DNA of 64,000 nucleotides. It comes from an uncultured Aquiluna sp. (GTDB lineage Bacteria; Actinomycetota; Actinomycetes; Actinomycetales; Microbacteriaceae). The notes under the pieces were generated by a model that worked only from the letters and a program-made list of their open reading frames with translations, did no database searches and was not told the origin of the DNA. Shown in pieces: positions 3,719 to 7,731 of the stretch; the first letter of the stretch is position 1; each line of letters starts with the position of its first letter. Location: NCBI GenBank assembly GCA_905182225.1, contig CAJJAJ010000029.1:1-64000 (forward strand). Reading direction: 5' to 3'. Both the position numbers and the translations under genes were made by a program.

Positions 3719-3740
3719 GGACACAAGGGTAATGCCTTGG

Positions 3741-3814
3741 TAGCGGGAGCGGGACTCGAACCCGCGACCTCACGATTATGAGTCGTGCGCTCTAACCACC
3801 TGAGCTACCCCGCC
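3741..3814 (-). tRNA. tRNA-Met (CAT)
   Basis: Cloverleaf on minus strand, anticodon loop CTCATAA, T-arm GCGGGTTCGAGTCCCGC; CCA encoded immediately 3'. Confidence 0.95.
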
Positions 3815-3833
3815 GCGTTTGATCCGAAGACCG

Positions 3834-3905
<72 letters not shown>

Positions 3906-3937: not shown

Positions 3938-5782
3938 CTAGCGAACAGCGCTAGGCAAACGCCAAATCTGTAAATCCAATTCTGCGGCGTCGTAGCGTAT
4001 TTTTCCGCCCACTACGCGAAGCAAGCCGTTGCCAAAAAGATTGGTGGCCCCTTCAGCGCCACTGATGGCATCTCTCGAGAATTGGAGCTTGCGATCCCTG
4101 CCCCTGGAGGCAATTACCAGCACCGACTCGGTCTTTGATTCTCTAACGAAAGCGATTGCTTCATCCGATGAGTAAAGCCAACGCATTGAGCCTTCGGCCA
4201 AAGCTCGATGGTGCTTTCGTATTTGAGACAGCTTCGCGTAGGTTTCAATCATGTGGGGGTCGGTCTCCCGCTCGCCATTCCAAGGCATTGGAGTTCTTGA
4301 ACCCTCACCAGTTTCGGCGTCTAGTCCCAGTTCATCTCCTGCGTAAACATGCGGAATTCCAGGAAAAGTGAACTGCAGCCCTGCGGCAACCCGCTGCGAG
4401 CCAGAAATGGCGAAGGTCTTAAACCGTCCGGTCTCATAGGTATCAAGAGCGTTTAGAGCATGCATTCTCAAGTGCCAAGGGGTAGTTCCGGACTGGCAGT
4501 TATGGGCTTGACGAAACTGGTCTCCTGAAATCGCCTTGCGACCAAGCCCAATCTTGGCTTCTTCTTTATTCTGCTTGGTGTTCCAAAGCCAGCTCCAGGT
4601 CGGCCGGGTGAAGTTGGCATAGCTCAAGATCGCTGAAAAATTATCGCCCTGAGTCTGGGCTCCCGAGTCCGTTCCGAAATTACCTATCAACAAGTTGTCT
4701 GGATTTGAGCTGTTCATGGTTTCTCGAACAAGGTTTAGAACCTGATGGTTATGGTCATCGATTCGGTTTTTACCAATTGCTCCTGCCGCCGCCAGCATCC
4801 AGCCGTCAAGCTGAAACGGTGCCGAAAGGCTTTTGGCAATAATCGATGCCTTGCCCTCGACGAGGCGTTTTCTAATTTCCCCAGAGCCCCAGTTGAACTT
4901 GGGTTGAGCTTCGTTTGCTCGCGCGGATTCATAGCTGAAGTTGCCCTCGGAGAAATAATAAAATTCACTCTCTAGAGCAGCAGGCTTCTTGAACGCTGAC
5001 GCAAACCACTCGTGAGCCTCGCCCGAGTGGTTCAAATTCAAATCGCCAATTACCTTGATGCCTGCCTCGTGAGCCTTGGAAACCAGGCTGGCAAGAGCTC
5101 CATTTCCACCCAGCACTGGGTCAACTTGGTCGAAACTCGTCGCATCTAGCCGATGGCTGGAGCCAGCCGGGAAAAACGGTGTGAGCTGCAAAATCGTGAC
5201 GCCAACTTTTTTCAGGTGGCTCAAGCGATCTTCAATCCCCTTTAGGTCACCGCCAAAAAACTGCTCGTTTACTCCGCTGCCCCTGGTCTTCACTGCACTA
5301 TTCCAGGTCTTGGGCTCCGCCCATGCCGGCATCTCGCGGTCATCTGCTTTGGTCGAACGAGAAAATCGGTCTGGTATGACCTGATACAGAACGCCCCCGG
5401 TAGCCCACTTGGGGACACTGTTGTGAACATTGATTCTAAAATCATCGCGGTCTGGCTGATCTAGCTCATGTAGCCCCGTGGCATTTAGCCAAAAGCTCTC
5501 GCCGCTAGTGCCTTCTAGAAAAAACCTGTAGTTGACTTCCGGGTTCGGAATGGCAAGTATGCCCTCGTACCAATCCCAACCGTGACGATGAATAAGAGGC
5601 TTGAGCCCCGGAGTGAAGACCGATTGGCCTGATTCGCTTTGACGAATAAGTACCTGCTTCAATTTGCCAATTGAATTGTGTATCCGGATGCGAATCTTGA
5701 TTTTGTCGCCGAGCTTAGGGCGCTGATTCGCAACGTAAAGTGCCGAGCCATCGTGGTGCGGTTGCAAATCCAGTTCAGGCAT
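3938..5782 (-). CDS. Glycoside hydrolase family 13 (alpha-amylase superfamily) homolog; apparent pseudoenzyme
   Basis: GH13 fold motifs (GGVLYQVIPDRFSR, GDLNLNHSGEAHEW, FPGIPHVYAGDELGL, RTPMPW), but catalytic regions II-IV read DGWMLAAAG, LIGNFG, LDTYETGRF. Confidence 0.88.
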   Translation of the reverse strand: MPELDLQPHHDGSALYVANQRPKLGDKIKIRIRIHNSIGKLKQVLIRQSESGQSVFTPGLKPLIHRHGWDWYEGILAIPNPEVNYRFFLEGTSGESFWLNATGLHELDQPDRDDFRINVHNSVPKWATGGVLYQVIPDRFSRSTKADDREMPAWAEPKTWNSAVKTRGSGVNEQFFGGDLKGIEDRLSHLKKVGVTILQLTPFFPAGSSHRLDATSFDQVDPVLGGNGALASLVSKAHEAGIKVIGDLNLNHSGEAHEWFASAFKKPAALESEFYYFSEGNFSYESARANEAQPKFNWGSGEIRKRLVEGKASIIAKSLSAPFQLDGWMLAAAGAIGKNRIDDHNHQVLNLVRETMNSSNPDNLLIGNFGTDSGAQTQGDNFSAILSYANFTRPTWSWLWNTKQNKEEAKIGLGRKAISGDQFRQAHNCQSGTTPWHLRMHALNALDTYETGRFKTFAISGSQRVAAGLQFTFPGIPHVYAGDELGLDAETGEGSRTPMPWNGERETDPHMIETYAKLSQIRKHHRALAEGSMRWLYSSDEAIAFVRESKTESVLVIASRGRDRKLQFSRDAISGAEGATNLFGNGLLRVVGGKIRYDAAELDLQIWRLPSAVR

Positions 5783-5838
5783 GCTTACAAACTACCCTGC
5801 AAAATGCCCCACAGACGTGAGGATATGCACAATGAAAT

Positions 5839-5853
5839 CCCCATAATGTGGGG
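5839..5853 (-). terminator. Possible weak stem-loop downstream of the sugar-binding protein gene
   Basis: Minus-strand CCCCACATTATGGGG followed by ATTTCATT. Confidence 0.35.
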
Positions 5854-5877
5854 ACACTCCCACAAAACAATCAAGCT

Positions 5878-7092
5878 TTAGTCACCGGTGACTGACGCTA
5901 TTTCCTCGGACATCATTCTCCAGAGCTGGTTCGGATCATCGTCTTTGCGCAAAATTGCCATTTGAGCCTCTCCCAGCGGAAACCAAACGGAGTCTATTTT
6001 TGGCGACACCGGCCTCGGCACCGCATTCGAACCGCTCAAGCCGAATTGGTAGGGAATCTTGAAATCTTTGGCGCTTTCTAGGGCTTTCAGATTAGAAGGA
6101 GTGCGCCCGGTTGCCTGAAACAAGGCGATTTGACCGGGGTCGCTTCCTAAGTATTCGACAATGAATTTGGTCGCAGCACCCGGGTCAACGGCTCGAGCAC
6201 TCAGCATTGCTCCCCGAACCTCTAGAAATGGCCTTGATACTTGTCCACCGGCAGAAGGAACTTCATAGGCGTTCCAGCCCCCCTCGCCGAAGGCCTCTGA
6301 GAACCACAATCCACTCCAGGGACCGGTGATCCAACAGCCCTTTTCGCCATCGATCAGCTGCTGCTTAATAAGGGCGGTATTGCTCTCAAGATCAAAAAGA
6401 GCAACATTTTTGGACAGCCAATTTGCAAAGGCGAGGCCTTCTTCGTTGCCCAAAGCTAGATTCAAAATTTCAGGGTTGGTTTCATCAACGTCGAAAACAG
6501 TCGAACCAAAAGATGTTTGAATCGGGTAGAGGTGATACGGGTCCCCGGTTCCATCGTTTAGCGAAATTGCAAGCCCGACATCAATTACCTCTTGGAATGT
6601 TTCGGGTGCTTTGGGCATTGCGGCCTCGGTGCACACGAGCGCAATGCTTTCTTGGGCGTAGGGCAACCCATATTGCTGCCCGCCATGGCTGAAGGCTTGC
6701 ACCGCTCCGGAGTTGAACCTTGTCTCAGAACCGTCCAGGCTAAATGGGGAAATCAGACCTTCGGATAAAAACCCTCGCTGCAGGCCGTGAGGTCCGAGAA
6801 CGATGTCAGGGGCATTGTCACCAGCACCCAAAAACTCGTTGGCTATGTCTGTTTTTATTACAAGGTCGACCCGGGTGCCGGTATCCGACTCAAACTGCAG
6901 TGCTACTGATTCGAGACCAAGCGCCTCTGACTCGTCTAACCAAACGGTAAGAACCTCGCTTTGGGTTGTGACCTCTGAGTTCGCTTCAGCAACAACTGCA
7001 GCTGGCTCGTTAGATGAGCACCCTGCAAGAGCAAGTGCAGAAATAATGGTCGCTCCGATAAAGCCCAGTGCGCCGGTCCTAGTCGCTTTCAA
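5878..7092 (-). CDS. Extracellular sugar-binding lipoprotein (family 1, maltose/maltodextrin-type ABC substrate-binding protein)
   Basis: Lipobox LALAGCSS; MBP-like features (APDIVLGPHGLQRGFLSEGLISPF, QYGLPYAQESIALVC, GCWITGPWSG). Start taken at TTG (LKATRTG); the track ORF extends to 7137. Confidence 0.85.
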   Translation of the reverse strand: MKATRTGALGFIGATIISALALAGCSSNEPAAVVAEANSEVTTQSEVLTVWLDESEALGLESVALQFESDTGTRVDLVIKTDIANEFLGAGDNAPDIVLGPHGLQRGFLSEGLISPFSLDGSETRFNSGAVQAFSHGGQQYGLPYAQESIALVCTEAAMPKAPETFQEVIDVGLAISLNDGTGDPYHLYPIQTSFGSTVFDVDETNPEILNLALGNEEGLAFANWLSKNVALFDLESNTALIKQQLIDGEKGCWITGPWSGLWFSEAFGEGGWNAYEVPSAGGQVSRPFLEVRGAMLSARAVDPGAATKFIVEYLGSDPGQIALFQATGRTPSNLKALESAKDFKIPYQFGLSGSNAVPRPVSPKIDSVWFPLGEAQMAILRKDDDPNQLWRMMSEEIASVTGD

Positions 7093-7268
7093 TGGGACCC
7101 CTTTCGACACCGGAACGCGTGAAATGAACAATAACATCCACTAAAACTGGACGTGGTTTTTCAATCCACAGCCTCAATTAGATGAGCCTGGCGGTCTGCT
7201 AGATAGAGGCCAACTTGAACTTGGCATCGCAGGATTTATCGGACCTAAAGCTCGCTAGGAGAATGGCA

Positions 7269-7296
7269 AAGGCCCAGTCTTGAATGACTGGGCCTT
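7269..7296 (-). terminator. Rho-independent terminator-like hairpin downstream of tRNA-Tyr
   Basis: 11-bp perfect inverted repeat AAGGCCCAGTC / GACTGGGCCTT with 6-nt loop, abutting the tRNA 3' CCA. Confidence 0.65.
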
Positions 7297-7298
7297 GG

Positions 7299-7380
7299 TG
7301 GCAAGTGAGGGATTCGAACCCACGAAGTCGATGACAGCTGATTTACAGTCAGATCCCTTTGGCCGCTTGGGTAACTTGCC
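7299..7380 (-). tRNA. tRNA-Tyr (GTA)
   Basis: Class II tRNA with long variable arm; anticodon loop CTGTAAA; acceptor GGCAAGT/ACTTGCC; CCA encoded at 7296-7298. Confidence 0.93.
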
Positions 7381-7449: not shown

Positions 7450-7731
7450 ACCATGCGCTTTTGGCACTCGTTGCCGCAGCCGAACCGCGTGCCAAAAGAC
7501 CTTTCCCAAACTTGAAGAGCCAGCATTGGACTCGATGGCCACCCGCTCGGAGAGTTCTACGGGCTCTCAACGGTTCATCAATCCGTGCAGAAGCAGGGAG
7601 CAAAGGCGGCAGATGCACTGATTGACATTTTGGAGTCAAATAACCCACGAGACCAAGAGAATTTTGAAGAAATGACCATCTGGCCGATCGAGCTCGTTGT
7701 CCGAAGCTCCACAGCTAAGCGCGCTCCATAG
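7450..7731 (+). pseudogene. Degraded C-terminal remnant of a LacI-family transcriptional regulator
   Basis: After a TGA at 7513-7515 the frame reads RASIGLDGHPLGEFYGLSTVHQSVQKQGAKAADALIDILESNNPRDQENFEEMTIWPIELVVRSSTAKRAP*, a LacI/GalR C-terminal signature. Upstream pieces in other frames (ALLALVAAAEPRAK; NRVPKDLS) match the preceding family motifs, implying frameshifts. Confidence 0.7.

Follow-up and report, generated by a model that had tools for sequence, protein, structure and literature searches.

A GH13-family protein without its catalytic residues is very probably maintained as a pseudoenzyme in one clade of Aquiluna

INTRODUCTION

Enzymes of the GH13 family use a catalytic triad consisting of an Asp on strand beta4, a Glu on beta5 and an Asp on beta7 (PMC11239784). 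Several proteins with a GH13 fold are nevertheless not enzymes. The plant isoamylase ISA2 has substitutions at its catalytic residues, including the nucleophile, is kept by selection and binds its paralog ISA1 (PMC12510319). The heavy subunits of amino-acid transporters, 4F2hc and rBAT, have the GH13 fold as non-enzymatic protein partners, and the catalytic residues of 4F2hc are not conserved (PMC8537225; PMC11239784). In the openly licensed literature, we found no bacterial GH13 pseudoenzyme that is maintained by selection.

The main text of a published survey credits the genus Aquiluna with GH13-based capacity, gives GanPQ as present in 22% of saltwater versus 71% of freshwater Aquiluna, and describes aglE as highly transcribed (PMC12422013); no check of catalytic residues was found in the main-text sections consulted. 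Here, we analysed a 64,000-nt stretch of DNA (hereafter the window) from an uncultured Aquiluna sp. (contig CAJJAJ010000029.1). Its GH13 gene encodes a protein that shares domain order and fold with the neopullulanase/CMDase-like enzymes MalZ and Apg (TM 0.86–0.87; best sequence match 1e-65), of which Aquiluna also has active orthologs. Unlike these enzymes, the protein lacks all three catalytic carboxylates, and several of its cleft residues are replaced.

RESULTS

The open reading frame at positions 3938–5782 (minus strand) encodes 614 amino acids, and PF00128 is its sole Pfam match (118 bits against a cut-off of 22). The top NCBIfam match is MalZ PRK10785; with the curated MalZ model NF008051, the protein scores 319.6 bits against a cut-off of 568 and is thus related, although this model does not class it as MalZ. 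The closest PDB sequences are E. coli MalZ (1.3e-65), the Klebsiella grimontii acarbose hydrolase Apg and the Thermoactinomyces neopullulanases. An AF2 model from a 64-sequence alignment (pLDDT 91, pTM 0.92) was used in place of one based on only 15 close sequences (pLDDT 51). The protein comprises an N-terminal beta-domain (residues ~1–120), a (beta/alpha)8 barrel (~121–510) and a C-terminal domain (~511–614). The best PDB structure matches of the model are MalZ and Apg over the full length, and TM values against MalZ, Apg and TVA I range from 0.86 to 0.89. The fold is therefore predicted to be intact and, with the barrel and PF00128, places the protein in the GH13 family. Neither a signal peptide nor a membrane anchor was evident.

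The original prediction, that all three catalytic carboxylates are replaced within an open 614-codon frame, held in the window, and its coordinates were exact. In region II (beta4; 4790–4798, minus strand), the residues are Met329 (4796–4798; Arg in active enzymes), Leu330 and Ala331 (4790–4792; the nucleophile Asp in active enzymes). In region III (beta5; 4679–4681, minus strand), Asn368 occupies the position of the acid/base Glu, and in region IV (beta7; 4433–4438, minus strand), Tyr449 (4436–4438) and Glu450 (4433–4435) occupy those of the His-Asp pair that contains the transition-state stabiliser. A phmmer alignment to MalZ and Apg pairs A331, N368 and E450 with D336, E373 and D448 of Apg, and the alignment reveals no intact Asp/Glu/Asp at the active site. 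According to PDB titles, from which the Apg mutation positions were taken, entries exist for Apg D336A, D448A and D448N; the equivalents of both D336 and D448 are altered here, and Ala331 is naturally the same change as the engineered D336A.

Regions I and V and the overall fold had originally been described as well preserved, but the rest of the cleft proved less intact than this suggested. The cleft aromatic Tyr212 is replaced by Leu, the WWGV loop (287–290) is missing, Trp318 has become Gly or Ser, and region I reads DLNLNH rather than the DLTANH of active enzymes. Active homologs have 141 sites with at least 95% invariance; of these, 23 carry a different residue in each of the four altered sequences compared, and many of the 23 surround the cleft (Y199, N209, Y212, T249, W287, G289, L293, W318, D331, N334–T336, E368, H449 and D450). 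D247, H252, R453, Trp396 and Trp398 are unchanged, as are most of the glycines, prolines and tryptophans of the framework.

Full orthologs numbered 16 across 23 Aquiluna genomes. Five species with 90–98% identity form what we call the dead clade: G000 (the window), its nearest sister G020, and G002, G014 and G019, of which G002 is the cultured isolate Candidatus Aquiluna sp. IMCC13023. The changes of Asp to Ala in region II and of His-Asp to Tyr-Glu in region IV are common to all five. The Arg-to-Met and Glu-to-Asn changes noted originally stand for the window and its nearest sister only, as the other three species have Arg at position 329 and Asp at the acid/base position. This variation within the clade indicates that the catalytic residues were lost stepwise. 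The other 11 orthologs of the genus (60–68% identity) keep DGWRID, GE and HD, and the triad is intact at all covered positions in 68 more distant homologs and genus members and, again where covered, in 26 loci found among 200 genomes sampled across the family. Within what was searched, and as far as alignment can tell, catalytic loss is limited to one clade. Two near-complete Aquiluna genomes, G010 and G011, have MalE-like and MalF-like genes without an ortholog of this GH13 gene, perhaps through a separate gene loss.

Selection was analysed with a codon maximum-likelihood program written for this study (GY94-type, F3x4), which reproduced the log-likelihoods that IQ-TREE gave for identical input; ten active orthologs were included and G008 was left out (ambiguous first residue). 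Omega of the GH13 gene in the dead clade was 0.116 (likelihood-ratio test against omega = 1, p = 2.6e-90), compared with 0.244 for malE, 0.070 for murB, 0.027 for aspC and 0.087 for hadA. No stop or indel was found in the five species over 2.27 neutral substitutions per codon, while neutral simulation on the same tree gave 7–16 expected internal stops per gene and no intact gene in 500 replicates. The gene thus has neither the disrupted frame nor the omega near 1 of a pseudogene. On the terminal G000 branch alone, omega was 0.28 (p = 0.025 against 1), and selection may have relaxed very recently in the species to which the window belongs.

Branch models gave a whole-gene omega of 0.079 in active versus 0.105 in dead lineages (p = 0.02), with marked differences between regions. 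Values for active and dead lineages did not differ significantly in the N-terminal domain (0.059 and 0.097), residues 121–255 (0.065 and 0.086) or residues 441–510 (0.044 and 0.036). Residues 256–440, around the active site, were relaxed (0.073 versus 0.185, p = 4e-6). The C-terminal domain was tightened (0.095 versus 0.023, p = 0.002), which could partly reflect synonymous saturation, as several active relatives are distant and their synonymous sites close to saturation. The late barrel and C-terminal domain (residues 441–614; 3941–4462, minus strand) are the most constrained part, with omega of 0.02–0.04. In the C-terminal domain, 102 of 104 sites are identical within the dead clade. Of the sites invariant across the genus, this domain has lost only 1 of 51, compared with 26 of 94 in residues 256–440. 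Neutral tree lengths are alike between regions of the gene, so the conservation of its 3′ half is not due to constraint at the DNA level.

A full locus, as in G007, comprises malE-malF-malG-GH13 beside two alpha-glucosidase genes and a gene for an MMPL protein; lacI adjoins yajQ in several relatives, and tRNA-hadA-hadB-murB lie downstream of the locus. The nearest active relatives, G005 and G015, have malE and an active GH13 gene without malFG at the locus, and together with the dead clade they are set apart from the remaining genus members (bootstrap 100). As all members of this group are without malFG at the locus, loss of the permease genes parsimoniously came first, followed by loss of catalysis and later by loss of the alpha-glucosidases and lacI. 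Contig C78 of G020 still carries lacI and the alpha-glucosidases, whose catalytic motifs are intact. That contig ends in yajQ-manA, which are 93.6% identical to the window, and contamination as the origin of these alpha-glucosidases was thereby ruled out. The window retains just the 3′ end of this type of lacI (7525–7722, plus strand), a remnant that, by comparison with the complete gene in G020, marks where the alpha-glucosidase/lacI block was recently deleted.

PF00128 searches detected no other GH13 gene in G000, G002, G014 or G019, compared with 8–13 matches in G005, G007 and G015; G020 keeps its two alpha-glucosidases alongside the dead GH13. No MalF match was found in G002 (99% complete, six contigs), and a sugar-type ABC system on contig C22 of G000 has its own binding protein. 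Gene absence was judged from searches of genome collections and is never absolute in MAGs; completeness is 90.7% for the window assembly (38 contigs) and 97–99% for the other four dead-clade genomes. The GanPQ figures of the survey agree in trend with the loss of this locus (PMC12422013).

A gene for an orphan MalE-like solute-binding lipoprotein (5878–7137, minus strand; lipobox LAGC; PF13416/PF01547 and NF007011; 2.6e-33 against T. maritima MalE1) adjoins the GH13 gene, without malFG, in all five dead-clade species. Nothing relevant on orphan maltose-binding proteins was found in the openly licensed literature. The HDW motif of related MalE proteins reads HGL in the window and HAL in G015, which is also without malFG; the DPYH and GPW motifs of the window protein are unchanged. 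The malE-GH13 spacer (5783–5877) is 95 nt long in all five dead-clade species and contains a GTGGGA...TCCCCAC hairpin that is conserved for the most part, along with a conserved block ahead of the start codon; that of G005 is shorter and different. In the window, malE is preceded by tRNA-Tyr (7296–7380, minus strand), the lacI scar and yajQ. In G002, an ice-binding-like gene (L032 1–2223; PF11999, 449 bits) lies upstream of malE, and a gene resembling it occupies this place in G014 (L033 1–2099) and G019. Directly downstream of the GH13 gene (3738–3905, minus strand) are tRNA-Thr (3833–3905) and tRNA-Met (3738–3814). G001 and G008 share a like small ORF (MKAVFIDESKSK...) between GH13 and hadA (L041 3712–4236; L045 5465–5989), which may be a mobile or accessory element inserted close to the tRNA genes.

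DISCUSSION

In this study, we found a GH13 protein that appears to combine homology to an enzyme, loss of the catalytic residues and retention by selection, and that can therefore be called a pseudoenzyme, as originally suggested. We regard it as very probably a maintained non-catalytic protein. The explanation as a whole, a maintained single-copy GH13 pseudoenzyme whose role probably lies in protein interaction, is in our judgement likely, while protein binding as the specific mechanism is put forward more tentatively, at somewhat short of even chances.

The ancestral protein was an active cytoplasmic maltodextrin hydrolase of the MalZ/neopullulanase type, encoded in the malto-oligosaccharide locus of Aquiluna; the dead protein is its direct ortholog and did not arise from a spare duplicate. 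The common ancestor of the five species had already exchanged the nucleophile and the region IV His-Asp pair and given up much of the cleft that contacts sugar; the window's branch then went on to lose Arg and the acid/base residue. Strong purifying selection continued to act on the predicted fold, above all on its C-terminal half, while other GH13 and maltose genes were deleted. We infer that the protein keeps a second, non-catalytic role, one that was probably present in the ancestral enzyme as well. A relaxed cleft together with a constrained late barrel and C-terminal domain favours binding of another protein, perhaps a scaffold, assembly or regulatory partner, by way of this conserved part and not of the cleft.

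The co-retained MalE-like lipoprotein may share a pathway with the dead GH13 protein. Direct contact between them is unlikely because the GH13 protein has no evident signal peptide, whereas MalE bears a lipobox and a signal for export. The two could also be a repurposed two-part module, neither catalytic nor for transport, that remains from a sugar-uptake operon, such as an external ligand detector with a cytoplasmic scaffold or regulator in these genome-streamlined aquatic bacteria; we consider such a module unlikely.

The original prediction had left a choice between a repurposed carbohydrate-binding or sensing protein and a protein under relaxed selection before gene loss, to be separated by dN/dS across close relatives, and the omega obtained points to repurposing and not decay. 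A pseudogene decaying in step with the maltose locus, and caught before disruption, would fit the genuine loss of the neighbouring alpha-glucosidases, lacI and malFG, the fresh scar at 7525–7722 and the relaxation near the active site; however, the low omega, the undisrupted frames and a C-terminal domain at omega of about 0.023–0.026 refute it for the clade as a whole. It survives solely in the form of decay that set in very recently on the terminal G000 branch, and we give it only a very slim chance. A sequencing, assembly or binning artefact might be suspected from the fragmented and incomplete window assembly, but the same replacements recur in separate genome records, among them that of the cultured IMCC13023 and those of MAGs that other projects produced. 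Sequencing error, by which the motif changes might have been refuted, is excluded on this ground, and an artefact of any kind has next to no probability.

While repurposing stood, the carbohydrate role originally attached to it fared less well. A sugar sensor or lectin, in which the dead cleft binds a maltodextrin or other glycan uncut and the binding serves as a signal, would accord with Ala at the nucleophile position, the change in Apg D336A, which was solved with bound ligands, as well as with the retention of Asp247, His252, Trp396, Trp398 and the MalE-like binding protein. More cleft residues are gone, however, among them Tyr212 (now Leu), His449 (now Tyr), Trp287/288 and, in the window's branch, Arg329, and evolution is fastest in the cleft region, while the C-terminal domain, which lies away from the cleft, is the most constrained. 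Since neither a further GH13 nor a permease of the MalF type was detected in G002, a 99%-complete genome, maltodextrin is unlikely to be an internal ligand there, and we hold sensing to be improbable. The barrel might instead catalyse a different reaction through other residues, given the carboxylates that persist in or close to catalytic positions (Glu450 in every species, Asp368 in three) and the several replacement residues fixed in the dead clade. Asp368 became Asn within the clade, though, and residues 256–440 around the pocket are the least constrained, unlike a new active site, which leaves new chemistry with a small probability. Sensing through the old cleft thus seems less likely than protein binding, and new chemistry less likely still.

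A maintained pseudoenzyme of this kind resembles ISA2 in fold, substitutions and selection, but ISA2 coexists with its active paralog ISA1, whereas in Aquiluna the conversion affected the single-copy ortholog, and G000, G002, G014 and G019 yielded no GH13 that could be an active partner. It resembles 4F2hc and rBAT as a non-enzymatic GH13 fold, although those are animal, membrane-anchored, extracellular proteins. The difference lies in a bacterial, single-copy GH13 conversion in place, in carriers that mostly have no other detected GH13; the selected role therefore cannot simply be to help an active sister enzyme. By comparing close species, the succession of losses can be read (first permease, then catalysis, then alpha-glucosidases), and the existence of a cultured carrier, IMCC13023, makes the role of the dead enzyme testable. 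For Aquiluna, our study indicates that CAZyme counts can overstate alpha-glucan degradation.
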